A DNA stretch of 64,000 nt from Muricea muricata (lineage: Eukaryota; Cnidaria; Anthozoa; Malacalcyonacea; Plexauridae). Made by a program: the position numbers and the translations under genes. Below, piece by piece: positions 1-29,270 of the stretch; the first letter of the stretch is position 1; the number at the start of each line of letters is the position of its first letter. Below the pieces are notes generated by a model, which searched no databases, had not been told where the DNA came from, and worked only from the letters and a program-made list of their open reading frames with translations. The stretch covers positions 7,450,118 through 7,514,117 of the forward strand of contig OY979725.1 of assembly GCA_963855995.1 (NCBI GenBank), written 5' to 3'.

Positions 1-310
1 GCTCTAAAACGTTGCCGTTATTGATTTAGACAGCTTTTTCGCTATCAAATTGCTTCCAGAACGCTTAAAACGCGATTTTGATGATTCTGAGATAACTTTT
101 TTTACTTGCAAAGAAAGTTTTAGGTTTTTCATTCCAGCATGCTTTTTTCGCTCATTTGGATAGTTAGAGGACCGCAAACATTATTTCCGACTTGGTAAGA
201 TCAGAAATTTTTATTTAGAAGGTGTCTTTTAGTCTTGAGTTTAGCCCTCAAAACATCATTTTAACCTCTAAAACGTTGCCGTTATTGATTTAGACAACTT
301 TTTTGCGCTC

Positions 311-342
311 AAATCGCTTCATGAACGCTTAAAAAGCGATTT
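311..342. repeat. Nine-bp dyad in monomer 2 (lengthened form)
   Basis: AAATCGCTT (311-319) and AAGCGATTT (334-342) are perfectly complementary around a 14-nt loop. In most other monomers the same dyad has only seven pairs (AAATCGC with GCGATTT) or six of seven in the CTATCAAATTGC form. The monomer-2 form recurs in every copy of monomer 2 in subfamily A that keeps AAAAAGCG. Confidence 0.8.
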
Positions 343-2012
343 TGATGATTCTGAGATTACTTTTTTTCACTTGCAAAGAATGTTTTAGCTTTTTCATTCA
401 ACATTTTATTTCGCTTATTTCGACAGTTAGAGCACCGCAAACATGATTTTCGTCTTGGTAAGATCAGAAATTTCGATTTAGAAGGTGCTTTTACTCTTGA
501 GTTTAGCCCTTAAAACATCATTTTAAGCTCTAAAACGATGCCGTTATTGATTTAAAATGCTTTTTTGCTATCAAATTGCTTCCAGAACGCTTAAAACGCG
601 ATTTTTAGGATTCTGAGATAACTTTTTTTACTTGCAATGAAAGTTTTAGGTTTTTCATTCCAGCATGTTTTTTCCGCTCATTTCGATAGTTAGAGGACCG
701 CAAACATGATTTCCGGCTTGGTAAGATCAGAAATTTCGATTTAGAAGGTGCTTTTAGTCTTGAGTTTAGCCCTCAAAACATCATTTTAAGCTCTAATACG
801 TTGCCGTTATTAATTTAGACAACTTTTTTGCGCTCAAATCGCTTCCAGAACGCTTAAAACGCGATTTTGATGATTCTGAGATCATTTTTTTCCACTTGCA
901 AAGAAAGTTTTAGGTTTTTCATTCCAGCACGTTTTTTCGCTCATTTCGATAGTTAGAGCACCGCAAACATGATTCCCGACTTGGTAAGACCAGAAATTTC
1001 GATTTAGAAGGTGTCTTTCAGTCTTGAGTTTAGCCCTCAAAACATCATTTTAAGCTCTAAAACGATGCCGTTATTGATTTAGACAGCTTTTTTGCTATCA
1101 AATTGCTTCCAGAACGCTTAAAGCGCGATTTCGATGATTCTGAGATCATTTTTTTTCACTTGTAGAGAAAGTTTTAGCTTTTTCATTCAACATTTTATTT
1201 CGTTCATTTCGACAGTTAGATCACCGCAAACATGATTTTCGTTATGGTAAGATCAGAAATTTTGATTTAGAAGGTGCTTTTAGTCTTGAGTTTAGCACTC
1301 AAAACATCATTTTAAGCTCTAAAACGATGCTGTTATTGATTTAAACAGCTTTTTTGCGCTCATATCGCTCCCAGAACGCTTAAAACGCGATTTTGATGAT
1401 TCTGAGATCATTTTTTTTCACTTGCAAAGAAAGTTTTAGGTTTTTTATTCCAGCACGTTATTTCCGTCATTTCGATAGTTAGAGCACCGCAAACATGATT
1501 CCCGACTTGGTAAGATCAGAAATTTCGATTTAGAAGGTGTCTTTTAGTCTTGAGTTTAGCCCTCAAAACATCATTTTAAGCTCTAAAACTATGCCGTTAT
1601 TAATTTAGACAGCTTTTTTGCTATCAAATTGCTTCCAGAACGCTTAAAGCGCGATTTTGATGATTCTGAGATAACTTTTTGTCCTTGCAAAGAAAGTTTT
1701 AGGTTTTTCATTCCAGCATGTTTTTTTCGCTCATTTCGACTGTTAGAGCACCGCAAACATGATTTTCGTCTTGGTAAGATCAGAAATTTTTATTTAGAAG
1801 GTGTCTTTTAGTCTTGAGTTTAGCTTTCAAAAAATCATTTTAAGCTCTAATACGTTTCCGTTATTGATTTAGACAGCTTTTTTGCGCTCAAATCGCTTCC
1901 AGAACGCTTAAAACGCGATTTTTGATGATTCACAGATCATTTTTTTTCACTTGCAAAGAAAGTTTTAGGTTTTTTATTCCAGCACGTTATTTCGCTTATT
2001 TCGATAGTTAGA

Positions 2013-2035
2013 CTCAGTGAACTTAAGTCCTGGCT
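2013..2035 (+). repeat. Left terminal inverted repeat, element copy 1
   Basis: 23 bp, opening CTCAGTGAACTTAAGTC. It pairs with 3178-3200 at 21 of 23 positions; the mismatches are at positions 8 and 18 of the repeat. It contains the palindrome ACTTAAGT. Confidence 0.9.
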
Positions 2036-2088
2036 TTAAAAACGAATTTTACCCCCTGCAACGTGGGTTCCGAAGTTTCGTGAATTCG

Positions 2089-2121
2089 CGTGGATTTCAC
2101 GTGGATTTCGCGTGGATACTA
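2089..2121. repeat. Three 11-bp direct repeats, element copy 1
   Basis: CGTGGATTTCA, CGTGGATTTCG and CGTGGATACTA follow each other at 11-bp spacing near the left end of the element. Subterminal short repeats are a common place for transposase binding, but that role is inferred only. The same array lies at 8281-8313 in copy 2. Confidence 0.8.
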
Positions 2122-2456
2122 ACAAGTGTTAGCTACGAGCAACTAGTGAACTAGGTCACACAGTAGAACAGTTTTTACTTTAATAAGACAAAGGTAAAGT
2201 GGAGTTAAAAGAGTCATCTACACGATAAATGAATTATATTTAACGTTTTGAACAATATTTGCAGATATACAAAAGCAATTTTATTGCCTTCCTTGTTTAC
2301 ATTTATACATGACAAAACTTGAATTTTGCTTGTATATTTTTCTCACATGAAACAAAAGAAGTTGAAAAGATTATATTTTAACTTTTAAAAACGAACTTTA
2401 AAAGCAAAATCGATAAAATTTTGCCGTTTTCGCCAAGATTTTTTGCTTGACTAACT

Positions 2457-2470
2457 GTTTCCATGGAAAC
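2457..2470. promoter_or_regulatory. X-box-like palindrome GTTTCCATGGAAAC, element copy 1
   Basis: A perfect 14-bp palindrome that fits the RFX-factor X-box pattern RYYNYYWWRRNRAC. The match is seen directly; binding is inference. The copy-2 equivalent is 8649-8662. Confidence 0.4.
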
Positions 2471-2786
2471 AAGAAAATTCAAAATTCAAAATGGCGGAAA
2501 AACTAATGACTTAAAAGCTAAATTAATTCTTTTATCGTAGTGAATTTAGCCCTGCATGCGGTCCTTTTTTTGGGGAAAAATGTTTATGCAGTAACAAAGT
2601 TGTTGCTAGATGGCACAAGAAGTGTGTTATGTCACCTCATCTGGGAAAAAATGAGTAAAATAATTGCCATGCAGCCATAAAGCTGTCAAAAGTCAGAAAA
2701 AAATTGCCTCGGGAGACTACCCTGTATCAAATACCAGCTCTCAGTGACTATGAAAATAAGTTCGTTTCCCACCCATTTTGGGGGAA

Positions 2787-2917
2787 CTAACCGGAATGTG
2801 TGTCCTCTGTGCCGAAAACATAAAAAAAATTGAAGTAGAAATGAAAAAATACATCAATTTTTAAAACAATTCTTTCTTTGTCCTAAACTATACATTCAGG
2901 ACACACATTCCAGTTAG
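2787..2917. repeat. Internal 20-bp inverted repeat with 91-nt spacer, element copy 1
   Basis: The arms are 2787-2806 and 2898-2917, complementary at 19 of 20 positions around GGAATGTGTGTCC and GGACACACATTCC. The spacer is A/T-rich. It could be the ends of a small nested inverted-repeat element or a hairpin of the host element. No clear target duplication flanks it. Confidence 0.85.
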
Positions 2918-3033
2918 ACTGATAAACTTGAATATACGTGCTTTCTAAAGCATACAATTTCTAATGCTAACATTATTCCCAGACCCATCTCCCAAGTCCG
3001 CAAAGATAAGTAACACAATATCAAGGATGTTAT

Positions 3034-3059
3034 GGTCACGTGACCGTTTCCATAGCAAC
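3034..3059. promoter_or_regulatory. 12-bp palindrome plus adjacent X-box-like site, element copy 1
   Basis: GGTCACGTGACC (3034-3045), a perfect palindrome with a CACGTG E-box core, is followed immediately by GTTTCCATAGCAAC (3046-3059), which fits the RFX X-box pattern RYYNYYWWRRNRAC. The two sites abut without a gap. Function is not shown by the sequence. Confidence 0.45.
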
Positions 3060-3177
3060 AAAATGCTGCAGTTTGTTAACACTAGGCCTAACTATTATTG
3101 TAGCAAGTTTGGTGGAGGTTGCTTTAGTATATGATGAGTAATTGCCATTTATGTCATATTTTGCTAAAATGAGCTGG

Positions 3178-3200
3178 AGCCATGACTTAAGTGCACTGAG
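3178..3200 (-). repeat. Right terminal inverted repeat, element copy 1
   Basis: Read on the minus strand it opens CTCAGTGCACTTAAGTC, matching the left end. It is followed directly by GA, the second copy of the presumed target duplication. Confidence 0.9.
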
Positions 3201-3822
3201 GAGCACCGCAAACATGATTCCCGACTTGGTAAGACCAGAAATTTCTATTTAGAAGGTGTCTTTTAGTCTTGAGTTTAGCTCTCAAAACATCATATTAAGC
3301 TCTAAAACGATGCTGTTATTGATTTAAACAGCTTTTTTGCAATCAAATTGCTTCCAGAACGCTTAAAACGCGATTTTTAGGATTCTGAGATAACTTTTTT
3401 TACTTGCAAAGAAAGTTTTAGGTTTTTCATTCCAGCATGTTTTTTTCGCTCATTTCGATAGTTAGAGGACCGCAAACATGATTTCCGGCTTGGCAAGACT
3501 AGAAATTTTTATTTAGGTGTCTTTTAGTCTTGAGTTTAGCCCTCAAAACATCATTTTAAGCTCTAATACGTTGCCGTTATTGATTTAGACAGCTTTTTTG
3601 CGCTCAAATCGCTTCCAGAACGCTTAAAACGCGCTTTTGATGATTCTGAGATCATTTTTTTCACTTGCAAAGAAAGTTTTAGGTTTTTTATTCCAGCACG
3701 TTATTTCGCTCATTTCGATAGTTAGAGCACCGCAAACATGTTTCCCGACTTGGTAAGATCAGAAATTTCGATTTAGAAGGTGTCTTTTAGTCTTGAGGTT
3801 AGCCCTCAAAACATCATTTTAA

Positions 3823-4086
3823 GCTCTAAAACGATGCCGTTATTGATTTAGACAGCTTTCTTGCTATCAAATTGCTTCCAGAACGCTTAAAACGCGATTT
3901 TGATGATTCTGAGATCATTTTTTCTCACTTGCAAAGAAACTTTTAGGTTTTTTATTCCAGCACGTTATTTCGCTCATTTCGATAGTTAGAGCACCGCAAA
4001 CATGATTCCCGACTTGGTAAGACCAGAAATTTCGATTTAGAAGGTGTCTTTTAGTCTGGAGTTTAGCCCTCAAAACATCATTTTAA
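3823..4086. repeat. Representative subfamily A monomer (264 bp)
   Basis: This is monomer 11 of copy 1, a clean full-length unit suitable as a reference. T-runs fall near monomer positions 35-40, 95-103, 126-130 and 143-149. The dyad around GCTTCCAGAACGC lies near positions 46-79. The mobile element in monomer 8 is inserted at the position equivalent to about 169. Confidence 0.9.
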
Positions 4087-7000
4087 GCTCTAAAACGATG
4101 CTGTTATTGATTTAAACAGCTTTTTTGCTATCAAATTGCTTCCAGAACGCTTAAAACGCGATTTTTATGATTCTGAGATAACTTTTTTTACTTGCAAAGA
4201 AAGTTTTAGGTTTTTCATTCCAGCATGTTTTTTTCGCTCATTTCGATAGTTAGGAGACCGCAAACATGATTTCCGCCTTGGCAAGATCAGAAATTTTTAT
4301 TTAGGTGTCTTTTAGTCTTGAGTTTAGCCCTCAAAACATCATTTTAGGCTCCAATACGTTGCCGTTATTGATTTAGACAGCTTTTTTGCGCTCAAATCGC
4401 TTCCAGAACGCTTAAAACGCGATTTTGATGATTCTGAGATAATTTTTTTTCACTTGTAAAGCAAGTTTTAGGTTTTTCAATCCAGCATGTTATTTCGCTC
4501 ATTTCGATAGTTAGGGCACCGCAAACATGACTCCCGACTTGGTAAGATCAAAAATTTCGATTTAGAAGGTGTCTTTTAGTCTTGAGTTTAGCCTTCAAAA
4601 CATCATTTTAAGCTCTAAAACTATGCCGTTATTGATTTAGACAGCTTTTTTGCTATCAAATTGCTTCCAGAACGCTTAAAGCGCGATTTTGATAATTCTG
4701 AGATAACTTTTTGTACTTGCAAAGAAAGTTTTAGGTTTTTCATTCCAGCATGTTTTTTTCGCTCATTTCGACTGTTAGAGCACCGCAAACATGATTTTCG
4801 TCTTGGTAAGATCAGAAATTTTTATTTAGAAGGTGTCTTTTAGTCTTGAGTTTAGCCCTCAAAAAATCATTTTAAGCTCTAATACGTTTCCGTTATTGAT
4901 TTAGACAGCTTTTTCGCTATCAAATTGCTTCCAGAACGCTTAAAACGCGATTTTGATGATTCTGAGATAACTTTTTTTACTTGCAAAGAAAGTTTTAGGT
5001 TTTTTATTCCAGCACGTTATTTTGCTTATTTCGATAGTTAGAGCACCGCAAACATGATTCCCGACTTGGTAAGATCAGAAATTTCGATTTAGAAGGTGTC
5101 TTTTAGTCTTGAGTTTACCCATCAAAACATCATTTTAAGCTCTAAAACGATGCCGTTATTGATTTAGACAGCTTTCTTGCTATCAAATTGCTTCCAGAAC
5201 GCTTAAAACGCGATTTTGATGATTCTGAGATCATTTTTTTTCACTTGCAAAGAAAGTTTTAGGTTTTTTATTCCAGCACGTTATTTCGCTCATTTCAATA
5301 GTTAGAGCACCGCAAACATGATTCCCGACTTGGTAAGACCAGAAATTTCGATTTAGAAGGTGTCTTTTAGTCTTGAGTTTAGCCCTCAAAACATCATTTT
5401 AAGCTCTAAAACGATGCTGTTATTGATTTAAACAGCTTTTTTGCTATCAAATTGCTTCCAGAACGCTTAAAACGCGATTTTTAGGATTCTGAGATAACTT
5501 TTTTTACTTGCAACGAAAGTTTTAGGTTTTTCATTCCAGCATGTTTTTTTCGCTCATTTCGATAGTTAGAGCACCGCAAATATGATTTCCGGCTTGGTAA
5601 GATCAGAAATTTCGATTTAGAAGGTGCTTTTAGTCTTGAGTTTAGCCCTCAAAACATCATTTTAAGCTCTAATACGTTGCCGTTATTAATTTAGACAACT
5701 TTTTTGCGCTCAAATAGCTTCCAGAACGCTTAAAACGCGATTTTGATGATTCTGAGATCATTTTTTTTCACTTGCAAAGAAAGTTTTAGGTTTTTTATTC
5801 CACCACGTTATTTCGCTCATTTCGATAGTTAGAGCACCGCAAACATGATTCCCGACTTGGTAAGACCAGAAATTTCGATTTAGAAGGTGTCTTTTAGTCT
5901 TGAGTTTAGCCCTCAAAACATCATTTTAAGCTCTAAAACGATGCCGTTATTGATTTAGACAGCTTTTTTGCTATCAAATTGCTTCCAGAACGCTTAAAGC
6001 GCGATTTCGATGATTCTGAGATCATTTTTTTTCACTTGTAAAGAAAGTTTTAGGTTTTTCATTCCAGCATGTTGTTTCGCTCATTTCGATAGCTGGGCAC
6101 CGCAAACATGATTCCCGACTTGGTAAGATCAAAAAATTCGATTTAGAAGGTGTCTTTTAGTCTTGAGTTTAGCCCTCAAAACATCATTTTAAGCTCTAAA
6201 ACGTTGCCGTTATTGATTTAGACAGCTTTTTCGCTATCAAATTGCTTCCAGAACGCTTAAAACGCGATTTTGATGATTCTGAGATAACTTTTTTTACTTG
6301 CAAAGAAAGTTTTAGGTTTTTCATTCCAGCATGCTTTTTTCGCTCATTTGGATAGTTAGAGGACCGCAAACATTATTTCCGACTTGGTAAGATCAGAAAT
6401 TTTTATTTAGAAGGTGTCTTTTAGTCTTGAGTTTAGCCCTCAAAACATCATTTTAACCTCTAAAACGTTGCCGTTATTGATTTAGACAACTTTTTTGCGC
6501 TCAAATCGCTTCATGAACGCTTAAAAAGCGATTTTGATGATTCTGAGATTACTTTTTTTCACTTGCAAAGAATGTTTTAGCTTTTTCATTCAACATTTTA
6601 TTTCGCTTATTTCGACAGTTAGAGCACCGCAAACATGATTTTCGTCTTGGTAAGATCAGAAATTTCGATTTAGAAGGTGCTTTTACTCTTGAGTTTAGCC
6701 CTTAAAACATCATTTTAAGCTCTAAAACGATGCCGTTATTGATTTAAAATGCTTTTTTGCTATCAAATTGCTTCCAGAACGCTTAAAACGCGATTTTTAG
6801 GATTCTGAGATAACTTTTTTTACTTGCAATGAAAGTTTTAGGTTTTTCATTCCAGCATGTTTTTTCCGCTCATTTCGATAGTTAGAGGACCGCAAACATG
6901 ATTTCCGGCTTGGTAAGATCAGAAATTTCGATTTAGAAGGTGCTTTTAGTCTTGAGTTTAGCCCTCAAAACATCATTTTAAGCTCTAATACGTTGCCGTT

Positions 7001-8204
7001 ATTAATTTAGACAACTTTTTTGCGCTCAAATCGCTTCCAGAACGCTTAAAACGCGATTTTGATGATTCTGAGATCATTTTTTTCCACTTGCAAAGAAAGT
7101 TTTAGGTTTTTCATTCCAGCACGTTTTTTCGCTCATTTCGATAGTTAGAGCACCGCAAACATGATTCCCGACTTGGTAAGACCAGAAATTTCGATTTAGA
7201 AGGTGTCTTTCAGTCTTGAGTTTAGCCCTCAAAACATCATTTTAAGCTCTAAAACGATGCCGTTATTGATTTAGACAGCTTTTTTGCTATCAAATTGCTT
7301 CCAGAACGCTTAAAGCGCGATTTCGATGATTCTGAGATCATTTTTTTTCACTTGTAGAGAAAGTTTTAGCTTTTTCATTCAACATTTTATTTCGTTCATT
7401 TCGACAGTTAGATCACCGCAAACATGATTTTCGTTATGGTAAGATCAGAAATTTTGATTTAGAAGGTGCTTTTAGTCTTGAGTTTAGCACTCAAAACATC
7501 ATTTTAAGCTCTAAAACGATGCTGTTATTGATTTAAACAGCTTTTTTGCGCTCATATCGCTCCCAGAACGCTTAAAACGCGATTTTGATGATTCTGAGAT
7601 CATTTTTTTTCACTTGCAAAGAAAGTTTTAGGTTTTTTATTCCAGCACGTTATTTCCGTCATTTCGATAGTTAGAGCACCGCAAACATGATTCCCGACTT
7701 GGTAAGATCAGAAATTTCGATTTAGAAGGTGTCTTTTAGTCTTGAGTTTAGCCCTCAAAACATCATTTTAAGCTCTAAAACTATGCCGTTATTAATTTAG
7801 ACAGCTTTTTTGCTATCAAATTGCTTCCAGAACGCTTAAAGCGCGATTTTGATGATTCTGAGATAACTTTTTGTCCTTGCAAAGAAAGTTTTAGGTTTTT
7901 CATTCCAGCATGTTTTTTTCGCTCATTTCGACTGTTAGAGCACCGCAAACATGATTTTCGTCTTGGTAAGATCAGAAATTTTTATTTAGAAGGTGTCTTT
8001 TAGTCTTGAGTTTAGCCCTCAAAAAATCATTTTAAGCTCTAATACGTTTCCGTTATTGATTTAGACAGCTTTTTTGCGCTCAAATCGCTTCCAGAACGCT
8101 TAAAACGCGATTTTTGATGATTCACAGATCATTTTTTTTCACTTGCAAAGAAAGTTTTAGGTTTTTTATTCCAGCACGTTATTTCGCTTATTTCGATAGT
8201 TAGA

Positions 8205-8227
8205 CTCAGTGAACTTAAGTCCTGGCT
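8205..8227 (+). repeat. Left terminal inverted repeat, element copy 2
   Basis: Same sequence as 2013-2035, shifted by 6,192 bp and preceded by GA at 8203-8204. Confidence 0.9.
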
Positions 8228-8280
8228 TTAAAAACGAATTTTACCCCCTGCAACGTGGGTTCCGAAGTTTCGTGAATTCG

Positions 8281-8313
8281 CGTGGATTTCACGTGGATTT
8301 CGCGTGGATACTA
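8281..8313. repeat. Three 11-bp direct repeats, element copy 2
   Basis: Same array as at 2089-2121, in the duplicated element. Confidence 0.8.
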
Positions 8314-8648
8314 ACAAGTGTTAGCTACGAGCAACTAGTGAACTAGGTCACACAGTAGAACAGTTTTTACTTTAATAAGACAAAGGTAAAGTGGAGTTAA
8401 AAGAGTCATCTACACGATAAATGAATTATATTTAACGTTTTGAACAATATTTGCAGATATACAAAAGCAATTTTATTGCCTTCCTTGTTTACATTTATAC
8501 ATGACAAAACTTGAATTTTGCTTGTATATTTTTCTCACATGAAACAAAAGAAGTTGAAAAGATTATATTTTAACTTTTAAAAACGAACTTTAAAAGCAAA
8601 ATCGATAAAATTTTGCCGTTTTCGCCAAGATTTTTTGCTTGACTAACT

Positions 8649-8662
8649 GTTTCCATGGAAAC
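8649..8662. promoter_or_regulatory. X-box-like palindrome, element copy 2
   Basis: Same 14-bp site as 2457-2470 in the duplicated element. Confidence 0.4.
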
Positions 8663-8978
8663 AAGAAAATTCAAAATTCAAAATGGCGGAAAAACTAATG
8701 ACTTAAAAGCTAAATTAATTCTTTTATCGTAGTGAATTTAGCCCTGCATGCGGTCCTTTTTTTGGGGAAAAATGTTTATGCAGTAACAAAGTTGTTGCTA
8801 GATGGCACAAGAAGTGTGTTATGTCACCTCATCTGGGAAAAAATGAGTAAAATAATTGCCATACAGCCATAAAGCTGTCAAAAGTCAGAAAAAAATTGCC
8901 TCGGGAGACTACCCTGTATCAAATACCAGCTCTCAGTGACTATGAAAATAAGTTCGTTTCCCACCCATTTTGGGGGAA

Positions 8979-9109
8979 CTAACCGGAATGTGTGTCCTCT
9001 GTGCCGAAAACATAAAAAAAATTGAAGTAGAAATGAAAAAATACATCAATTTTTAAAACAATTCTTTCTTTGTCCTAAACTATACATTCAGGACACACAT
9101 TCCAGTTAG
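8979..9109. repeat. Internal 20-bp inverted repeat with 91-nt spacer, element copy 2
   Basis: Same structure as 2787-2917, shifted by 6,192 bp. Confidence 0.85.
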
Positions 9110-9225
9110 ACTGATAAACTTGAATATACGTGCTTTCTAAAGCATACAATTTCTAATGCTAACATTATTCCCAGACCCATCTCCCAAGTCCGCAAAGATA
9201 AGTAACACAATATCAAGGATGTTAT

Positions 9226-9251
9226 GGTCACGTGACCGTTTCCATAGCAAC
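9226..9251. promoter_or_regulatory. 12-bp palindrome plus adjacent X-box-like site, element copy 2
   Basis: Same pair of sites as 3034-3059, shifted by 6,192 bp. Confidence 0.45.
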
Positions 9252-9369
9252 AAAATGCTGCAGTTTGTTAACACTAGGCCTAACTATTATTGTAGCAAGT
9301 TTGGTGGAGGTTGCTTTAGTATATGATGAGTAATTGCCATTTATGTCATATTTTGCTAAAATGAGCTGG

Positions 9370-9392
9370 AGCCATGACTTAAGTGCACTGAG
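9370..9392 (-). repeat. Right terminal inverted repeat, element copy 2
   Basis: Same sequence as 3178-3200, shifted by 6,192 bp and followed by GA at 9393-9394. Confidence 0.9.
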
Positions 9393-12385
9393 GAGCACCG
9401 CAAACATGATTCCCGACTTGGTAAGACCAGAAATTTCTATTTAGAAGGTGTCTTTTAGTCTTGAGTTTAGCTCTCAAAACATCATATTAAGCTCTAAAAC
9501 GATGCTGTTATTGATTTAAACAGCTTTTTTGCAATCAAATTGCTTCCAGAACGCTTAAAACGCGATTTTTAGGATTCTGAGATAACTTTTTTTACTTGCA
9601 AAGAAAGTTTTAGGTTTTTCATTCCAGCATGTTTTTTTCGCTCATTTCGATAGTTAGAGGACCGCAAACATGATTTCCGGCTTGGCAAGACTAGAAATTT
9701 TTATTTAGGTGTCTTTTAGTCTTGAGTTTAGCCCTCAAAACATCATTTTAAGCTCTAATACGTTGCCGTTATTGATTTAGACAGCTTTTTTGCGCTCAAA
9801 TCGCTTCCAGAACGCTTAAAACGCGCTTTTGATGATTCTGAGATCATTTTTTTCACTTGCAAAGAAAGTTTTAGGTTTTTTATTCCAGCACGTTATTTCG
9901 CTCATTTCGATAGTTAGAGCACCGCAAACATGTTTCCCGACTTGGTAAGATCAGAAATTTCGATTTAGAAGGTGTCTTTTAGTCTTGAGGTTAGCCCTCA
10001 AAACATCATTTTAAGCTCTAAAACGATGCCGTTATTGATTTAGACAGCTTTCTTGCTATCAAATTGCTTCCAGAACGCTTAAAACGCGATTTTGATGATT
10101 CTGAGATCATTTTTTCTCACTTGCAAAGAAACTTTTAGGTTTTTTATTCCAGCACGTTATTTCGCTCATTTCGATAGTTAGAGCACCGCAAACATGATTC
10201 CCGACTTGGTAAGACCAGAAATTTCGATTTAGAAGGTGTCTTTTAGTCTTGAGTTTAGCCCTTAAAACATCATTTTAAGCTCTAAAACGATGCTGTTATT
10301 GATTTAAACAGCTTTTTTGCTATCAAATTGCTTCCAGAACGCTTAAAACGCGATTTTTATGATTCTGAGATAACTTTTTTTACTTGCAAAGAAAGTTTTA
10401 GGTTTTTCATTCCAGCATGTTTTTTTCGCTCATTTCGATAGTTAGGAGACCGCAAACATGATTTCCGCCTTGGCAAGATCAGAAATTTTTATTTAGGTGT
10501 CTTTTAGTCTTGAGTTTAGCCCTCAAAACATCATTTTAGGCTCCAATACGTTGCCGTTATTGATTTAGACAGCTTTTTTGCGCTCAAATCGCTTCCAGAA
10601 CGCTTAAAACGCGATTTTGATGATTCTGAGATAATTTTTTTTCACTTGTAAAGCAAGTTTTAGGTTTTTCAATCCAGCATGTTATTTCGCTCATTTCGAT
10701 AGTTAGGGCACCGCAAACATGACTCCCGACTTGGTAAGATCAAAAATTTCGATTTAGAAGGTGTCTTTTAGTCTTGAGTTTAGCCTTCAAAACATCATTT
10801 TAAGCTCTAAAACTATGCCGTTATTGATTTAGACAGCTTTTTTGCTATCAAATTGCTTCCAGAACGCTTAAAGCGCGATTTTGATAATTCTGAGATAACT
10901 TTTTGTACTTGCAAAGAAAGTTTTAGGTTTTTCATTCCAGCATGTTTTTTTCGCTCATTTCGACTGTTAGAGCACCGCAAACATGATTTTCGTCTTGGTA
11001 AGATCAGAAATTTTTATTTAGAAGGTGTCTTTTAGTCTTGAGTTTAGCCCTCAAAAAATCATTTTAAGCTCTAATACGTTTCCGTTATTGATTTAGACAG
11101 CTTTTTCGCTATCAAATTGCTTCCAGAACGCTTAAAACGCGATTTTGATGATTCTGAGATAACTTTTTTTACTTGCAAAGAAAGTTTTAGGTTTTTTATT
11201 CCAGCACGTTATTTCGCTTATTTCGATAGTTAGAGCACCGCAAACATGATTCCCGACTTGGTAAGATCAGAAATTTCGATTTAGAAGGTGTCTTTTAGTC
11301 TTGAGTTTACCCATCAAAACATCATTTTAAGCTCTAAAACGATGCCGTTATTGATTTAGACAGCTTTCTTGCTATCAAATTGCTTCCAGAACGCTTAAAA
11401 CGCGATTTTGATGATTCTGAGATCATTTTTTTTCACTTGCAAAGAAAGTTTTAGGTTTTTTATTCCAGCACGTTATTTCGCTCATTTCAATAGTTAGAGC
11501 ACCGCAAACATGATTCCCGACTTGGTAAGACCAGAAATTTCGATTTAGAAGGTGTCTTTTAGTCTTGAGTTTAGCCCTCAAAACATCATTTTAAGCTCTA
11601 AAACGATGCTGTTATTGATTTAAACAGCTTTTTTGCTATCAAATTGCTTCCAGAACGCTTAAAACGCGATTTTTAGGATTCTGAGATAACTTTTTTTACT
11701 TGCAACGAAAGTTTTAGGTTTTTCATTCCAGCATGTTTTTTTCGCTCATTTCGATAGTTAGAGCACCGCAAATATGATTTCCGGCTTGGTAAGATCAGAA
11801 ATTTCGATTTAGAAGGTGCTTTTAGTCTTGAGTTTAGCCCTCAAAACATCATTTTAAGCTCTAATACGTTGCCGTTATTAATTTAGACAACTTTTTTGCG
11901 CTCAAATAGCTTCCAGAACGCTTAAAACGCGATTTTGATGATTCTGAGATCATTTTTTTTCACTTGCAAAGAAAGTTTTAGGTTTTTTATTCCACCACGT
12001 TATTTCGCTCATTTCGATAGTTAGAGCACCGCAAACATGATTCCCGACTTGGTAAGACCAGAAATTTCGATTTAGAAGGTGTCTTTTAGTCTTGAGTTTA
12101 GCCCTCAAAACATCATTTTAAGCTCTAAAACGATGCCGTTATTGATTTAGACAGCTTTTTTGCTATCAAATTGCTTCCAGAACGCTTAAAGCGCGATTTC
12201 GATGATTCTGAGATCATTTTTTTTCACTTGTAAAGAAAGTTTTAGGTTTTTCATTCCAGCATGTTGTTTCGCTCATTTCGATAGTTAGGGCACCGCAAAC
12301 ATGATTCCCGACTTGGTAAGATCAAAAAATTCGATTTAGAAGGTGTCTTTTAGTCTTGAGTTTAGCCCTCAAAACATCATTTTAA

Positions 12386-15300
12386 GCTCTAAAACGTTGC
12401 CGTTATTGATTTAGACAGCTTTTTCGCTATCAAATTGCTTCCAGAACGCTTAAAACGCGATTTTGATGATTCTGAGATAACTTTTTTTACTTGCAAAGAA
12501 AGTTTTAGGTTTTTCATTCCAGCATGCTTTTTTCGCTCATTTGGATAGTTAGAGGACCGCAAACATTATTTCCGACTTGGTAAGATCAGAAATTTTTATT
12601 TAGAAGGTGTCTTTTAGTCTTGAGTTTAGCCCTCAAAACATCATTTTAACCTCTAAAACGTTGCCGTTATTGATTTAGACAACTTTTTTGCGCTCAAATC
12701 GCTTCATGAACGCTTAAAAAGCGATTTTGATGATTCTGAGATTACTTTTTTTCACTTGCAAAGAATGTTTTAGCTTTTTCATTCAACATTTTATTTCGCT
12801 TATTTCGACAGTTAGAGCACCGCAAACATGATTTTCGTCTTGGTAAGATCAGAAATTTCGATTTAGAAGGTGCTTTTACTCTTGAGTTTAGCCCTTAAAA
12901 CATCATTTTAAGCTCTAAAACGATGCCGTTATTGATTTAAAATGCTTTTTTGCTATCAAATTGCTTCCAGAACGCTTAAAACGCGATTTTTAGGATTCTG
13001 AGATAACTTTTTTTACTTGCAATGAAAGTTTTAGGTTTTTCATTCCAGCATGTTTTTTCCGCTCATTTCGATAGTTAGAGGACCGCAAACATGATTTCCG
13101 GCTTGGTAAGATCAGAAATTTCGATTTAGAAGGTGCTTTTAGTCTTGAGTTTAGCCCTCAAAACATCATTTTAAGCTCTAATACGTTGCCGTTATTAATT
13201 TAGACAACTTTTTTGCGCTCAAATCGCTTCCAGAACGCTTAAAACGCGATTTTGATGATTCTGAGATCATTTTTTTCCACTTGCAAAGAAAGTTTTAGGT
13301 TTTTCATTCCAGCACGTTTTTTCGCTCATTTCGATAGTTAGAGCACCGCAAACATGATTCCCGACTTGGTAAGACCAGAAATTTCGATTTAGAAGGTGTC
13401 TTTCAGTCTTGAGTTTAGCCCTCAAAACATCATTTTAAGCTCTAAAACGATGCCGTTATTGATTTAGACAGCTTTTTTGCTATCAAATTGCTTCCAGAAC
13501 GCTTAAAGCGCGATTTCGATGATTCTGAGATCATTTTTTTTCACTTGTAGAGAAAGTTTTAGCTTTTTCATTCAACATTTTATTTCGTTCATTTCGACAG
13601 TTAGATCACCGCAAACATGATTTTCGTTATGGTAAGATCAGAAATTTTGATTTAGAAGGTGCTTTTAGTCTTGAGTTTAGCACTCAAAACATCATTTTAA
13701 GCTCTAAAACGATGCTGTTATTGATTTAAACAGCTTTTTTGCGCTCATATCGCTCCCAGAACGCTTAAAACGCGATTTTGATGATTCTGAGATCATTTTT
13801 TTTCACTTGCAAAGAAAGTTTTAGGTTTTTTATTCCAGCACGTTATTTCCGTCATTTCGATAGTTAGAGCACCGCAAACATGATTCCCGACTTGGTAAGA
13901 TCAGAAATTTCGATTTAGAAGGTGTCTTTTAGTCTTGAGTTTAGCCCTCAAAACATCATTTTAAGCTCTAAAACGATGCTGTTATTGATTTAAACAGCTT
14001 TTTTGCTATCAAATTGCTTCCAGAACGCTTAAAACGCGATTTTTATGATTCTGAGATAACTTTTTTTACTTGCAAAGAAAGTTTTAGGTTTTTCATTCCA
14101 GCATGTTTTTTTCGCTCATTTCGATAGTTAGGGGACCGCAAACATGATTTCCGCCTTGGCAAGATCAGAAATTTTTATTTAGGTGTCTTTTAGTCTTGAG
14201 TTTAGCCCTCAAAACATCATTTTAGGCTCCAATACGTTGCCGTTATTGATTTAGACAGCTTTTTTGCGCTCAAATCGCTTCCAGAACGCTTAAAACGCGA
14301 TTTTGATGATTCTGAGATAATTTTTTTTCACTTGTAAAGCAAGTTTTAGGTTTTTCAATCCAGCATGTTATTTCGCTCATTTCGATAGTTAGGGCACCGC
14401 AAACATGACTCCCGACTTGGTAAGATCAAAAATTTCGATTTAGAAGGTGTCTTTTAGTCTTGAGTTTAGCCTTCAAAACATCATTTTAAGCTCTAAAACT
14501 ATGCCGTTATTGATTTAGACAGCTTTTTTGCTATCAAATTGCTTCCAGAACGCTTAAAGCGCGATTTTGATGATTCTGAGATAACTTTTTGTACTTGCAA
14601 AGAAAGTTTTAGGTTTTTCATTCCAGCATGTTTTTTTCGCTCATTTCGACTGTTAGAGCACCGCAAACATGATTTTCGTCTTGGTAAGATCAAAAATTTT
14701 TATTTAGAAGGTGTCTTTTAGTCTTGAGTTTAGCCCTCAAAAAATCATTTTAAGCTCTAATACGTTTCCGTTATTGATTTAGACAGCTTTTTCGCTATCA
14801 AATTGCTTCCAGAACGCTTAAAACGCGATTTTGATGATTCTGAGATAACTTTTTTTACTTGCAAAGAAAGTTTTAGGTTTTTTATTCCAGCACGTTATTT
14901 CGCTTATTTCGATAGTTAGAGCACCGCAAACATGATTCCCGACTTGGTAAGATCAGAAATTTCGATTTAGAAGGTGTCTTTTAGTCTTGAGTTTACCCAT
15001 CAAAACATCATTTTAAGCTCTAAAACGATGCCGTTATTGATTTAGACAGCTTTCTTGCTATCAAATTGCTTCCAGAACGCTTAAAACGCGATTTTGATGA
15101 TTCTGAGATCATTTTTTTTCACTTGCAAAGAAAGTTTTAGGTTTTTTATTCCAGCACGTTATTTCGCTCATTTCAATAGTTAGAGCACCGCAAACATGAT
15201 TCCCGACTTGGTAAGACCAGAAATTTCGATTTAGAAGGTGTCTTTTAGTCTTGAGTTTAGCCCTCAAAACATCATTTTAAGCTCTAAAACGATGCTGTTA

Positions 15301-16071
15301 TTGATTTAAACAGCTTTTTTGCTATCAAATTGCTTCCAGAACGCTTAAAACGCGATTTTTAGGATTCTGAGATAACTTTTTTTACTTGCAACGAAAGTTT
15401 TAGGTTTTTCATTCCAGCATGTTTTTTTCGCTCATTTCGATAGTTAGAGCACCGCAAATATGATTTCCGGCTTGGTAAGATCAGAAATTTCGATTTAGAA
15501 GGTGCTTTTAGTCTTGAGTTTAGCCCTCAAAACATCATTTTAAGCTCTAATACGTTGCCGTTATTAATTTAGACAACTTTTTTGCGCTCAAATAGCTTCC
15601 AGAACGCTTAAAACGCGATTTTGATGATTCTGAGATCATTTTTTTTCACTTGCAAAGAAAGTTTTAGGTTTTTTATTCCACCACGTTATTTCGCTCATTT
15701 CGATAGTTAGAGCACCGCAAACATGATTCCCGACTTGGTAAGACCAGAAATTTCGATTTAGAAGGTGTCTTTTAGTCTTGAGTTTAGCCCTCAAAACATC
15801 ATTTTAAGCTCTAAAACGATGCCGTTATTGATTTAGACAGCTTTTTTGCTATCAAATTGCTTCCAGAACGCTTAAAGCGCGATTTCGATGATTCTGAGAT
15901 CATTTTTTTTCACTTGTAAAGAAAGTTTTAGGTTTTTCATTCCAGCATGTTGTTTCGCTCATTTCGATAGTTAGGGCACCGCAAACATGATTCCCGACTT
16001 GGTAAGATCAAAAAATTCGATTTAGAAGGTGTCTTTTAGTCTTGAGTTTAGCCCTCAAAACATCATTTTAA
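12386..16071. repeat. Higher-order repeat A, copy 3 (14 monomers, internally deleted)
   Basis: It begins as copies 1 and 2 do (monomers 1 to 6), then passes directly to monomers 12 to 19. Compared with copy 1, 1580-4086 is missing: 2,507 bp, equal to the 1,188-bp element plus 1,319 bp, or five monomers. The junction lies between about 13,901 (monomer 6 marker AAGATCAG) and 13,976 (monomer 12 marker GATGCTG). Repeat phase is kept, so unequal exchange between monomers is the likely cause. Confidence 0.93.
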
Positions 16072-19000
16072 GCTCTAAAACGTTGCCGTTATTGATTTAG
16101 ACAGCTTTTTCGCTATCAAATTGCTTCCAGAACGCTTAAAACGCGATTTTGATGATTCTGAGATAACTTTTTTTACTTGCAAAGAAAGTTTTAGGTTTTT
16201 CATTCCAGCATGTTTTTTTCGCTCATTTCGATAGTTAGGGGACCGCAAACATGATTTCCGCCTTGGCAAGATCAGAAATTTTTATTTAGGTGTCTTTTAG
16301 TCTTGAGTTTAGCCCTCAAAACATCATTTTAAGCTCTAATACGTTGCCGTTATTGATTTAGACAGCTTTTTTGCGCTCAAATCGCTTCCAGAACGCTTAA
16401 AACGCGATTTTGATGATTCTGAGATAATTTTTTTTCACTTGTAAAGCAAGTTTTAGGTTTTTCAATCCAGCATGTTATTTCGCTCATTTCGATAGTTAGG
16501 GCACCGCAAACATGACTCCCGACTTGGTAAGATCAAAAATTTCGATTTAGAAGGTGTCTTTTAGTCTTGAGTTTAGCCTTCAAAACATCATTTTAAGCTC
16601 TAAAACTATGCCGTTATTGATTTAGACAGCTTTTTTGCTATCAAATTGCTTCCAGAACGCTTAAAGCGCGATTTTGATGATTCTGAGATAACTTTTTGTA
16701 CTTGCAAAGAAAGTTTTAGGTTTTTCATTCCAGCATGTTTTTTTCGCTCATTTCGACTGTTAGAGCACCGCAAACATGATTTTCGTCTTGGTAAGATCAG
16801 AAATTTTTATTTAGAAGGTGTCTTTTAGTCTTGAGTTTAGCCCTCAAAAAATCATTTTAAGCTCTAATACGTTTCCGTTATTGATTTAGACAGCTTTTTC
16901 GCTATCAAATTGCTTCCAGATCGCTTAAAACGCGATTTTGATGATTCTGAGATAACTTTTTTTACTTGCAAAGAAAGTTTTAGGTTTTTTATTCCAGCAC
17001 GTTATTTCGCTTATTTCGATAGTTAGAGCACCGCAAACATGATTCCCGACTTGGTAAGATCAGAAATTTCGATTTAGAAGGTGTCTTTTAGTCTTGAGTT
17101 TACCCATCAAAACATCATTTTAAGCTCTAAAACGATGCCGTTATTGATTTAGACAGCTTTCTTGCTATCAAATTGCTTCCAGAACGCTTAAAACGCGATT
17201 TTGATGATTCTGAGATCATTTTTTTTCACTTGCAAAGAAAGTTTTAGGTTTTTTATTCCAGCACGTTATTTCGCTCATTTCAATAGTTAGAGCACCGCAA
17301 ACATGATTCCCGACTTGGTAAGACCAGAAATTTCGATTTAGAAGGTGTCTTTTAGTCTTGAGTTTAGCCCTCAAAACATCATTTTAAGCTCTAAAACGAT
17401 GCTGTTATTGATTTAAACAGCTTTTTTGCTATCAAATTGCTTCCAGAACGCTTAAAACGCGATTTTTAGGATTCTGAGATAACTTTTTTTACTTGCAACG
17501 AAAGTTTTAGGTTTTTCATTCCAGCATGTTTTTTTCGCTCATTTCGATAGTTAGGGCACCGCAAACATGACTCCCGACTTGGTAAGATCAAAAATTTCGA
17601 TTTAGAAGGTGTCTTTTAGTCTTGAGTTTAGCCTTCAAAACATCATTTTAAGCTCTAAAACTATGCCGTTATTGATTTAGACAGCTTTTTTGCTATCAAA
17701 TTGCTTCCAGAACGCTTAAAGCGCGATTTTGATGATTCTGAGATAACTTTTTGTACTTGCAAAGAAAGTTTTAGGTTTTTCATTCCAGCATGTTTTTTTC
17801 GCTCATTTCGACTGTTAGAGCACCGCAAACATGATTTTCGTCTTGGTAAGATCAGAAATTTTTATTTAGAAGGTGTCTTTTAGTCTTGAGTTTAGCCCTC
17901 AAAAAATCATTTTAAGCTCTATCACGTTTCCGTTATTGATTTAGACAGCTTTTTCGCTATCAAATTGCTTCCAGATCGCTTAAAACGCGATTTTGATGAT
18001 TCTGAGATAACTTTTTTTACTTGCAAAGAAAGTTTTAGGTTTTTTATTCCAGCACGTTATTTCGCTTATTTCGATAGTTAGAGCACCGCAAACATGATTC
18101 CCGACTTGGTAAGATCAGAAATTTCGATTTAGAAGGTGTCTTTTAGTCTTGAGTTTACCCATCAAAACATCATTTTAAGCTCTAAAACGATGCCGTTATT
18201 GATTTAGACAGCTTTCTTGCTATCAAATTGCTTCCAGAACGCTTAAAACGCGATTTTGATGATTCTGAGATCATTTTTTTTCACTTGCAAAGAAAGTTTT
18301 AGGTTTTTTATTCCAGCACGTTATTTCGCTCATTTCAATAGTTAGAGCACCGCAAACATGATTCCCGACTTGGTAAGACCAGAAATTTCGATTTAGAAGG
18401 TGTCTTTTAGTCTTGAGTTTAGCCCTCAAAACATCATTTTAAGCTCTAAAACGATGCTGTTATTGATTTAAACAGCTTTTTTGCTATCAAATTGCTTCCA
18501 GAACGCTTAAAACGCGATTTTTAGGATTCTGAGATAACTTTTTTTACTTGCAACGAAAGTTTTAGGTTTTTCATTCCAGCATGTTTTTTTCGCTCATTTC
18601 GATAGTTAGAGGACCGCAAATATGATTTCCGGCTTGGTAAGATCAGAAATTTCGATTTAGAAGGTGCTTTTAGTCTTGAGTTTAGCCCTCAAAACATCAT
18701 TTTAAGCTCTAATACGTTGCCGTTATTAATTTAGACAACTTTTTTGCGCTCAAATAGCTTCCAGAACGCTTAAAACGCGATTTTGATGATTCTGAGATCA
18801 TTTTTTTTCACTTGCAAAGAAAGTTTTAGGTTTTTTATTCCACCACGTTATTTCGCTCATTTCGATAGTTAGAGCACCGCAAACATGATTCCCGACTTGG
18901 TAAGACCAGAAATTTCGATTTAGAAGGTGTCTTTTAGTCTTGAGTTTAGCCCTCAAAACATCATTTTAAGCTCTAAAACGATGCCGTTATTCATTTAGAC

Positions 19001-19233
19001 AGCTTTTTTGCTATCAAATTGCTTCCAGAACGCTTAAAGCGCGATTTCGATGATTCTGAGATCATTTTTTTTCACTTGTAAAGAAAGTTTTAGGTTTTTC
19101 ATTCCAGCATGTTGTTTCGCTCATTTCGATAGTTAGGGCACCGCAAACATGATTCCCGACTTGGTAAGATCAAAAAATTCGATTTAGAAAGTGTCTTTTA
19201 GTCTTGAGTTTAGCCCTCAAAACATCATTTTAA
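16072..19233. repeat. Rearranged higher-order block, 12 monomers
   Basis: Order relative to copy 1 is 1/12 hybrid, 13, 14, 15, 16, 17/13 hybrid, 14, 15, 16, 17, 18, 19. Monomer starts include 16072, 16333, 16597, 16861, 17124, 17388, 17652 and 18706. The first hybrid switches between 16,151 and 16,213, and the second between about 17,537 and 17,555. Both switches keep monomer phase. Confidence 0.9.
16597..18705. repeat. Four-monomer tandem duplication (1,055-bp shift)
   Basis: Monomers 14-15-16-17 occur at 16597-17651 and again at 17652-18705. Both copies of monomer 15 carry a private change, CCAGATCGC in place of CCAGAACGC (near 16,920 and 17,975), not seen in the equivalent monomers of the other blocks. 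This shows the two copies descend from each other. The last monomer of the first copy is the 17/13 hybrid that marks the exchange point. Confidence 0.9.
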
Positions 19234-21605
19234 GCTCTAAAACGTTGCCGTTATTGATTTAGACAGCTTTTTCGCTATCAAATTGCTTCCAGAACGCTTA
19301 AAACGCGATTTTGATGATTCTGAGATAACTTTTTTTACTTGCAAAGAAAGTTTTAGGTTTTTCATTCCAGCATGCTTTTTTCGCTCATTTGGATAGTTAG
19401 AGGACCGCAAACATTATTTCCGACTTGGTAAGATCAGAAATTTTTATTTAGAAGGTGTCTTTTAGTCTTGAGTTTAGCCCTCAAAACATCATTTTAACCT
19501 CTAAAACGTTGCCGTTATTGATTTAGACAACTTTTTTGCGCTCAAATCGCTTCATGAACGCTTAAAGAGCGATTTTGATGATTCTGAGATTACTTTTTTT
19601 CACTTGCAAAGAATGTTTTAGCTTTTTCATTCAACATTTTATTTCGCTTATTTCGACAGTTAGAGCACCGCAAACATGATTTTCGTCTTGGTAAGATCAG
19701 AAATTTCGATTTAGAAGGTGCTTTTACTCTTGAGTTTAGCCCTTAAAACATCATTTTAAGCTCTAAAACGATGCCGTTATTGATTTAGACAGCTTTTTTG
19801 CTATCAAATTGCTTCCAGAACGCTTAAAGCGCGATTTCGATGATTCTGAGATCATTTTTTTTCACTTGTAAAGAAAGTTTTAGGTTTTTCATTCCAGCAT
19901 GTTGTTTCGCTCATTTCGATAGTTAGGGCACCGCAAACATGATTCCCGACTTGGTAAGATCAAAAATTTCGATTTAGAAGGTGTCTTTTAGTCTTGAGTT
20001 TAGCCCTCAAAACATCATTTTAAGCTCTAAAACGTTGCCGTTATTGATTTAGACAGCTTTTTCGCTATCAAATTGCTTCAAGAACGCTTAAAACGCGATT
20101 TTGATGATTCTGAGATAACTTTTTGTACTTGCAAAGAAAGTTTTAGGTTTTTCATTCCAGCATGTTTTTTTCGCTCATTTCGACTGTTAGAGCACCGCAA
20201 ACATGATTTTCGTCTTGGTAAGATCAGAAATTTTTATTTAGAAGGTGTCTTTTAGTCTTGAGTTTAGCCCTCAAAAAATCATTTTAAGCTCTAATACGTT
20301 TCCGTTATTGATTTAGACAGCTTTTTCGCTATCAAATTGCTTCCAGAACGCTTAAAACGCGATTTTGATGATTCTGAGATAACTTTTTTTACTTGCAAAG
20401 AAAGTTTTAGGTTTTTTATTCCAGCACGTTATTTCGCTTATTTCGATAGTTAGAGCACCGCAAACATGATTCCCGACTTGGTAAGATCAGAAATTTCGAT
20501 TTAGAAGGTGTCTTTTAGTCTTGAGTTTACCCATCAAAACATCATTTTAAGCTCTAAAACGATGCCGTTATTGATTTAGACAGCTTTCTTGCTATCAAAT
20601 TGCTTCCAGAACGCTTAAAACGCGATTTTGATGATTCTGAGATCATTTTTTTTCACTTGCAAAGAAAGTTTTAGGTTTTTTATTCCAGCACGTTATTTCG
20701 CTCATTTCAATAGTTAGAGCACCGCAAACATGATTCCCGACTTGGTAAGACCAGAAATTTCGATTTAGAAGGTGTCTTTTAGTCTTGAGTTTAGCCCTCA
20801 AAACATCATTTTAAGCTCTAAAACGATGCTGTTATTGATTTAAACAGCTTTTTTGCTATCAAATTGCTTCCAGAACGCTTAAAACGCGATTTTTAGGATT
20901 CTGAGATAACTTTTTTTACTTGCAACGAAAGTTTTAGGTTTTTCATTCCAGCATGTTTTTTTCGCTCATTTCGATAGTTAGAGGACCGCAAATATGATTT
21001 CCGGCTTGGTAAGATCAGAAATTTCGATTTAGAAGGTGCTTTTAGTCTTGAGTTTAGCCCTCAAAACATCATTTTAAGCTCTAATACGTTGCCGTTATTA
21101 ATTTAGACAACTTTTTTGCGCTCAAATAGCTTCCAGAACGCTTAAAACGCGATTTTGATGATTCTGAGATCATTTTTTTTCACTTGCAAAGAAAGTTTTA
21201 GGTTTTTTATTCCACCACGTTATTTCACTCATTTCGATAGTTAGAGCACCGCAAACATGATTCCCGACTTGGTAAGACCAGAAATTTCGATTTAGAAGGT
21301 GTCTTTTAGTCTTGAGTTTAGCCCTCAAAACATCATTTTAAGCTCTAAAACGATGCCGTTATTGATTTAGACAGCTTTTTTGCTATCAAATTGCTTCCAG
21401 AACGCTTAAAGCGCGATTTCGATGATTCTGAGATCATTTTTTTTCACTTGTAAAGAAAGTTTTAGGTTTTTCATTCCAGCATGTTGTTTCGCTCATTTCG
21501 ATAGTTAGGGCACCGCAAACATGATTCCCGACTTGGTAAGATCAAAAAATTCGATTTAGAAGGTGTCTTTTAGTCTTGAGTTTAGCCCTCAAAACATCAT
21601 TTTAA
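19234..21605. repeat. Rearranged higher-order block, 9 monomers
   Basis: Order is 1, 2, 19, 1/14 hybrid, 15, 16, 17, 18, 19, with starts at 19234, about 19498, 19760, 20024, about 20291 and onward. Monomer 2 joins monomer 19 between about 19,750 and 19,786. The 1/14 hybrid switches between about 20,090 and 20,122 and carries a CTTCAAGAACG variant that recurs in the next blocks. Confidence 0.88.
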
Positions 21606-22395
21606 GCTCTAAAACGTTGCCGTTATTGATTTAGACAGCTTTTTCGCTATCAAATTGCTTCCAGAACGCTTAAAACGCGATTTTGATGATTCTGAGATAA
21701 CTTTTTTTACTTGCAAAGAAAGTTTTAGGTTTTTCATTCCAGCATGCTTTTTTCGCTCATTTAGATAGTTAGAGGACCGCAAACATTATTTCCGACTTGG
21801 TAAGATCAAAAATTTTTATTTAGAAGGTGTCTTTTAGTCTTGAGTTTAGCCCTCAAAACATCATTTTAACCTCTAAAACGTTGCCGTTATTGATTTAGAC
21901 AACTTTTTTGCGCTCAAATCGCTTCATGAACGCTTAAAGAGCGATTTTGATGATTCTGAGATTACTTTTTTTCACTTGCAAAGAATGTTTTAGCTTTTTC
22001 ATTCAACATTTTATTTCGCTTATTTCGACAGTTAGAGCACCGCAAACATGATTTTCGTCTTGGTAAGATCAGAAATTTCGATTTAGAAGGTGCTTTTACT
22101 CTTGAGTTTAGCCCTTAAAACATCATTTTAAGCTCTAAAACGATGCCGTTATTGATTTAGACAGCTTTTTTGCTATCAAATTGCTTCCAGAACGCTTAAA
22201 GCGCGATTTCGATGATTCTGAGATCATTTTTTTTCACTTGTAAAGAAAGTTTTAGGTTTTTCATTCCAGCATGTTGTTTCGCTCATTTCGATAGTTAGGG
22301 CACCGGAAACATGATTCCCGACTTGGTAAGATCAAAAATTTCGATTTAGAAGGTGTCTTTTAGTCTTGAGTTTAGCCCTCAAAACATCATTTTAA
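21606..22395. repeat. Partial higher-order block, monomers 1-2-19
   Basis: Three monomers (21606, about 21870 and 22132) repeat the start of the preceding 9-monomer block at offset 2,372. They share that block's variant GCTTAAAGAGCG in monomer 2. After 22,396 the order differs, so this is a truncated copy. Confidence 0.85.
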
Positions 22396-24238
22396 GCTCT
22401 AAAACGTTGCCGTTATTGATTTAGACAGCTTTTTCGCTATCAAATTGCTTCAAGAACGCTTAAAACGCGATTTTGATGATTCTGAGATAACTTTTTTTAC
22501 TTGCAAAGAAAGTTTTAGGTTTTCATTCCAGCATGCTTTTTTCGCTCATTTCGATAGTTAGAGGACCGCAAACATTATTTCCGACTTGGTAAGATCAGAA
22601 ATTTTTATTTAGAAGGTGTCTTTTAGTCTCAAGTTTAGCCCTCAAAACATCATTTTAACCTGTAAAACGTTGCCGTTATTGATTTAGACAACTTTTTTGC
22701 GCTGAAATCGCTTCATGAACGCTTAAAAAGCGATTTTGATGATTCTAAGATTACTTTTTTTCACTTGCAAAGAATGTTTTAGCTTTTTCATTCAACATTT
22801 TATTTCGCTCATTTCGACAGTTAGAGCACCGCAAACATGATTTTCGTCTTGGTAAGATCAGAAATTTCTATTTAGAAGGTGTCTTTTAGTCTTGAGTTTA
22901 GCCCTCAAAACATCATTTTAACCTCTAAAACGTTGCCGTTATTGATTTAGACAACTTTTTTGCGCTCAAATCGCTTCATGAACGCTTAAAAAGCGATTTT
23001 GATGATTCTGAGATTACTTTTTTTCACTTGCAAAGAATGTTTTAGCTTTTTCATTCAACATTTTATTTCGCTCATTTCGACAGTTAGAGCACCGCAAACA
23101 TGATTTTCGTCTTGGTAAGATCAGAAATTTCTATTTAGAAGGTGCTTTTAGTCTTGAGTTTAGCCCTTAAAACCTCATTTTAAGCTCTAAAACGATGCCG
23201 TTATTGATTTAAAATGCTTTTTTGCGCTCAAATCGCTTCCAGAACGCTTAAAACGCGATTTTGATGATTCTGAGATCATTTTTTTTTACTTGCAAAGAAA
23301 GTTTTAGGTTTTTCATTCCAGCATGCTTTTTTCGCTCATTTGGATAGTTAGAGGACCGCAAACATTATTTCCGACTTGGTAAGATCAGAAATTTTTATTT
23401 AGAAGGTGTCTTTTAGTCTTGAGTTTAGCCCTCAAAACATCATTTTAACCTCTAAAACGTTGCCGTTATTGATTTAGACAACTTTTTTGCGCTCAAATCG
23501 CTTCATGAACGCTTAAAAAGCGATTTTGATGATTCTGAGATTACTTTTTTTCACTTGCAAAGAATGTTTTAGCTTTTTCATTCAACATTTTATTTCGCTT
23601 ATTTCGACAGTTAGAGCACCGCAAACATGATTTTCGTCTTGGTAAGATCAGAAATTTCGATTTAGAAGGTGCTTTTACTCTTGAGTTTAGCCCTTAAAAC
23701 ATCATTTTAAGCTCTAAAACGATGCCGTTATTGATTTAAAATGCTTTTTTGCTATCAAATTGCTTCCAGAACGCTTAAAACGCGATTTTTAGGATTCTGA
23801 GATAACTTTTTTTACTTGCAATGAAAGTTTTAGGTTTTTCATTCCAGCATGTTTTTTTCGCTCATTTCGATAGTTAGAGGACCGCAAACATGATTTCCGG
23901 CTTGGTAAGATCAGAAATTTCGATTTAGAAGGTGTCTTTCAGTCTTGAGTTTAGCCCTCAAAACATCATTTTAAGCTCTAAAACGATGCCGTTATTGATT
24001 TAGACAGCTTTTTTGCTATCAAATATCTTCCAGAACGCTTAAAGCGCGATTTCGATGATTCTGAGATCATTTTTTTTCACTTGTAAAGAAAGTTTTAGGT
24101 TTTTCATTCCAGCATGTTGTTTCGCTCATTTCGATAGTTAGGGCACCGCAAACATGATTCCCGACTTGGTAAGATCAAAAATTTCGATTTAGAAGGTGTC
24201 TTTTAGTCTTGAGTTTAGCCCTCAAAACATCATTTTAA
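22396..24238. repeat. Seven-monomer higher-order unit
   Basis: It opens with a monomer-1 variant carrying CTTCAAGAACG and a 1-bp shorter T-run (AGGTTTTCATTCC), followed by a monomer-2 variant starting CCTGTAAAACG at 22,659. The same pair opens the next unit at 24,239 and again at 26,345. Length is 1,843 bp, seven monomers. Confidence 0.88.
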
Positions 24239-29247: not shown

Positions 29248-29270
29248 GCTCTAATACGTTGCCGTTATCG
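29248..29270. other. Junction between subfamilies A and B
   Basis: Up to 29,247 the sequence has A markers (TTAGAAGGTGTC, TTAGTCTTGAG). CTAATACG at 29,251 is still A-like, while TTATCGATTT at 29,267 and all later markers are B. The register is unbroken, so the change occurred by in-phase exchange or by divergence of one array, not by insertion. Confidence 0.85.

Follow-up and report, generated by a model that had tools for sequence, protein, structure and literature searches.

In the bovine 1.711b satellite, on work attributed to Streeck (1981), an insert of about 1.2 kb has reportedly been amplified as a fixed part of the satellite unit and is said to be present in very many copies. Here, we describe a stretch of 64,000 nucleotides of Muricea muricata (assembly GCA_963855995.1, contig OY979725.1, positions 7,450,118 to 7,514,117; hereafter the window), in which a 1,188-bp element with terminal inverted repeats (TIRs) lies inside a satellite of approximately 264 bp and where, unlike the bovine insert, two copies of it were seen. 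The same process, duplication of mobile element insertions within higher-order arrays, is described for human alpha-satellite; in that report, most mobile elements of the chromosome 2 array D2Z1 are considered to fit duplication of one element and not separate insertions (PMC12350169). The human case concerns L1HS and Alu in a monomer of ~171 bp, whereas the present element has TIRs and its satellite a monomer of 264 bp. For the CentP satellite of Pennisetum, a study suggests post-integration duplication of centromeric retrotransposons, describes satellites beside the elements as more diverged and proposes that homogenisation purges the elements (PMC12933667). The diverged satellite around those elements resembles a trough of similarity seen at the present locus, although retrotransposons at many loci were studied there and one locus here.

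Whole-monomer changes of comparable size are known from Arabidopsis centromeres, for which a review reports in-frame insertions and deletions of 1–31 monomers (PMC12321929); here, 19 monomers are duplicated and five are absent from a neighbouring unit. No transposon cargo is mentioned in that passage of the review, whereas an element is carried in our case. A TIR transposon located in satellite DNA is also described from the ant Messor bouvieri, where Mboumar mariner (~1.3 kb) is proposed to play a role in satellite evolution (PMC2581405); the present element differs from it in that no coding frame was found and in its probable GA target duplication. The copying of an element with a block of satellite, and its absence from a neighbouring block, is an ordinary, known way for satellite arrays to grow and shrink, and the process has already been described in human and plant centromeres. 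The specific feature of the present case is that a TIR element and a 264-bp satellite come together with three adjacent units, in which element-bearing and element-free states are both seen. As these units differ in element content at very little divergence, they provide a clear small case of a transposon-like element copied, and apparently lost, as the cargo of a satellite array, the steps of which can be read base by base in ~16 kb, and which is relevant to how arrays purge or multiply insertions. A narrow literature search found no paper on a 264-bp satellite with higher-order structure, which does not prove that such a paper is lacking.

The 19-monomer unit and its copies

Decomposition into monomers placed two full units, A1 and A2, and a shortened third unit, A3, side by side at the left end of the window (Table 1); the left limit of A1 is the first base of the window, and A1 may begin upstream. 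A1 and A2 are 99.871% identical over 6,193 aligned bases, with seven mismatches at 1825, 1826, 2671 (in the element), 4058, 4071, 5023 and 6093 and one gap, a single base absent after 6094 (A1 coordinates), in line with the ~99.9% duplicate of a 6.19-kb unit proposed in a sequence-only reading of this DNA. That reading had also noted strong differences among the monomers of the unit, and indeed their pairwise identity inside A1 has a mean of 91.5% (86.0–98.5), so that the identity of the two units exceeds the background similarity of the satellite. The extent that it gave, 1–12385, holds for the pair of A1 and A2, but the repetition continues past 12385 as A3 to 16071.

When monomers were clustered into types at 3.5%, the order was identical in A1 and A2 (1 2 3 4 5 6 7 8 9 10 11 9 12 7 13 11 3 4 14, with 8 as the element-bearing monomer). 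The satellite content of A2, 5,003 bp, amounts to 19 × 263.3, a whole number of monomers. Among 32 runs of at least five consecutive monomers, in which every consecutive monomer is at least 97.5% identical, the run at a lag of 19 is the longest (25 monomers). Diverse monomers within near-identical units (91.5% and 99.87%, respectively) are features of a higher-order repeat; many regular copies are not present, as two full units and a shortened one are followed within the window by an irregular mosaic.

The two element copies, which differ at 1 position in 1,190, interrupt one monomer type at an identical base and have matching flanks. They are thus one insertion copied with the satellite around it, and tandem units that agree in insertion point and flanks are what a transposon duplicated within a satellite array would show. 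The element evidently travelled with the satellite in the duplication of A1 and A2, and looks like a passenger of block duplication in the array. The sequence-only reading had gone further, making the transposon part of the repeating unit and letting it spread by satellite amplification. One duplication together with the satellite stands from this proposal, but "spreads" is too strong for two copies, and membership of the repeating unit is not supported, as A3 lacks the element and five monomers.

Table 1 Positions of the satellite units, the element and its parts in the window
Feature	Positions	Strand	Remarks
A1	1..6192	+	19 satellite monomers and element copy 1; 99.87% identical to A2; from monomer decomposition
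A2	6193..12385	+	Second 19-monomer unit, with element copy 2
A3	12386..16071	+	14 monomers, without monomers 7–11 and the element; in-phase junction at 13902–13974
Element copy 1	2013..3200	.	1,188 bp, inside monomer 8; terminal inverted repeats; no coding capacity found
Element copy 2	8205..9392	.	1 mismatch in 1,190 to copy 1
Left terminal inverted repeat, copy 1	2013..2035	+	21/23 positions matching
Right terminal inverted repeat, copy 1	3178..3200	-	23 bp, pairs with 2013..2035
Three 11-bp direct repeats, left end of element	2085..2117	+	Also at 8277–8309 in copy 2
GA, left copy of probable target duplication	2011..2012	+	Uninterrupted site reads GTTAGAGCACCGC in 53 of 70 matches
GA, right copy of probable target duplication	3201..3202	+	From uninterrupted-site comparison
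Element-free mosaic	16072..29247	+	Monomer types mostly shared with the units; new ones near right edge
Second subfamily of the same satellite	29248..64000	+	Identity to the first subfamily 83%; approximate limit

Element anatomy and insertion site

The element has a G+C content of 34.8%. When the single bases of the element were shuffled 20,000 times, no shuffle reached the match between its ends, and the best TIR-like end pairing in stretches of the same length from 12386–64000 was 15/23. The longest of the 27 stop-to-stop frames listed as overlapping 1950–3260 has 70 aa and extends into the satellite, and a Pfam scan of 10 of the 27 gave a single match (E value 0.089), the score of which, 13.3 bits, is below the cut-off of 50. 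A coding transposon is therefore unsupported, given the absence of any longer frame among those listed and of a significant match among those scanned. With inverted ends and no transposase gene found, the anatomy suggests a non-autonomous TIR DNA transposon. No further copy was detected in the window by blastn (E up to 1e-3). A 20-bp internal inverted repeat (95%) was also observed at 2787–2806 and 2898–2917, 91 bp apart.

A junction of satellite and element, claimed for 2003–2022 in the earlier reading, could be placed at 2012/2013. The pattern of the uninterrupted site has 70 matches before 29,150, of which 53 read GTTAGAGCACCGC, and the interrupted site reads ...GTTAGA, then the element, then GAGCACCGC.... 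In the domain of the first satellite subfamily, no uninterrupted site with a doubled GA (TTAGAGAGC) was seen, and the other domain has a single one, at 60098. The interrupted site would most simply result from a 2-bp GA target duplication, which we regard as probable. Tc1/mariner is a poor match, given that the flanks show GA and not the TA target duplication of this superfamily. The hallmark of hAT elements is an 8-bp target duplication beside CAGTG-type ends; the eight bases outside CAGTG and CACTG in the present case (2007–2014 and 3199–3206) form no repeat, unlike those expected for hAT. After excision of the element in silico, monomer 8 is nearest over its whole length to the type 4 monomers (12 differing positions), with its left part slightly nearer to type 10 (7 versus 9 differing positions). 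A position at a satellite recombination breakpoint is thus unsupported, and the element does not lie at an obvious one because the excised monomer is nearest to type 4 over its full length.

The third unit and the origin of the arrangement

A3 comprises the monomer types 1–6, then 9 12 7 13 11 3 4 14. Its first part, 12386–13964, is 100% identical to 1–1579 and 6193–7771 (1,579 bp), and its last 2,107 bp show six differences from A1 and three from A2, the latter being all the differences across the 3,686 bp that A2 and A3 share. Absent from it are 2,507 bp, which make up five complete monomers as well as the element and its second GA. At the junction, monomer 6 leads into the position that monomer 11/12 has in a full unit, through a 73-bp stretch common to both parental places except for 4058 in A1 and 4071 in A2. 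The phase is kept across this junction, as expected for exchange between misaligned monomers. In either direction of change, gain or loss of the element involves whole monomers and is no simple insertion into the A3 sequence.

A1 and A2 share A at 4255 and at 4694, in 17-base contexts found nowhere else in the window, where A3 carries the base that other copies have. At 4815, it is the base of A3 that is less common (2 versus 19 places). Given that the two contexts are exclusive to A1 and A2, these units are best read as sisters relative to A3.

Taken together, a single insertion, followed by duplication of a block carrying the element and by an in-phase block difference in A3, is our best explanation, with a probability of about 0.85. 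The 1,188-bp non-autonomous element would have inserted once into a monomer of the 264-bp satellite. The route that we infer for the duplication of the 19-monomer block carrying it would be in-register recombination or replication repair in the array, with unequal exchange and break-induced replication as candidates. For the neighbouring unit A3, the direction that we infer would be an in-phase loss of five monomers and the element; less simply, A3 may never have received the five-monomer element block. The scatter of the A1/A2 differences along the unit is consistent with this origin. Element-free tandem blocks are also present elsewhere, in 43269–51974 at a lag of 18 monomers (4,764 bp; 13 consecutive monomers at 99.68%, near 43.3 and 48.0 kb) and in a second block, also at a lag of 18, of 12 monomers at 98.58%, which makes large-block duplication a habit of the array.

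Several points weigh against this explanation. The GA duplication is 2 bp long and comes from one insertion, so that chance may be responsible, and no further copy that would confirm the ends of the element was found in the window or in the virus, prokaryote and phage collections. The differences between A1 and A2 are lopsided: six of the eight are private to A1 (two of these are adjacent and may be a single event), one, 4071, is the variant of A2, the context of which is common to seven other places, and the one in the element is unpolarisable. The imbalance could be due to chance, to conversion of A2 by its neighbours or to assembly weakness at the window start, and such a weakness, or merged alleles, may lie behind the A1-only excess. 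The corresponding alternative, that one unit was entered twice or that two alleles were laid in tandem by the assembly, draws on this excess beside the window start, but is in our view quite improbable, given that the differences are scattered, that A2 and A3 with their three differences form a tandem regardless of A1 and that similar tandem blocks occur elsewhere in the window. Were A1 an artefact, the tandem pair of A2 and A3 would still stand.

It also weighs against a loss in A3 that this unit could be the older state, with the five-monomer element block added to the A lineage later from elsewhere in the array. This variant of the best explanation is a genuine, if lesser, possibility. Monomers 8, 9, 10 and 11 have no match of at least 99% among the 50 monomers of 16072–29247, and the same is true of monomer 7 in A1, whereas monomer 7 of A2 does have such a match, of 99.2%. 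However, monomers 5, 6 and 12, which are retained in A3, are likewise without such a match, and the private stretch thus does not coincide with the missing block. That the element inserted twice, independently, at one and the same site in two repeats that already existed is virtually ruled out by the surrounding satellite, 99.87% identical over 19 monomers, and by element copies that are one base apart.

The surrounding satellite array

Without the two elements, the window consists of 233 complete head-to-tail monomers of 261–270 bp. The first subfamily comprises 102 monomers up to ~29.2 kb with a mean identity of 91.8%, and the second 130 monomers beyond this point with 91.3%; the border monomer at 29248 was counted in neither. 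The identity between the two subfamilies is 83.3%, and the G+C content rises at their border (~29.2 kb).

Comparison of the unit monomers with the 50 monomers of 16072–29247 revealed a trough around the element. In A1, the best outside match of monomers 1–4 and 13–19 is 99.2–100% (11/11 at or above 99%), and that of monomers 5–12 is 93.1–98.5% (0/8). In A2, 11 of the 11 outer monomers and one of the eight monomers 5–12 have a relative of at least 99%, the one being monomer 7. The distance from the element correlates with the best outside identity in both units, with a rho of 0.77 in A1, ranking first among 19 circular shifts, and of 0.81 in A2, ranking second among 19. An insertion that shields nearby satellite from homogenisation might thereby shape the unit, and exchange might then remove the element solely in blocks ending within the private stretch, as in A3. 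We consider this doubtful, as the test is a weak one at one locus, the homogenised monomer 7 of A2 lies right beside the element-bearing monomer and a ten-monomer element-free stretch from 26608, at the domain edge, is equally private.

Neither structured RNA nor a tRNA gene was found across the window with Rfam (gathering scores) and ARAGORN, and a strict CENP-B box pattern was unmatched on both strands. Searches of viral contigs with four patterns, of prokaryote genome contigs with two, of phages with the element and of plasmids with the unit found no relatives; such virus, prokaryote and plasmid collections say little on an apparently eukaryotic satellite.

The mosaic to the right of A3 was painted by comparing 300-bp pieces of 12,201–30,000 with A1. 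The 70 pieces starting at 16101–26451 gave best matches of 97.0–100% in 62 cases and of 93.7–96.9% in 8, and in-phase jumps are frequent in this region. The subfamily switch lies in about 26,600–29,300. There, none of the ten monomers preceding the edge has a relative of 99% in the first domain, and additional partial anchor matches spaced by 75 bp were observed near 27305, 28099 and 29154.

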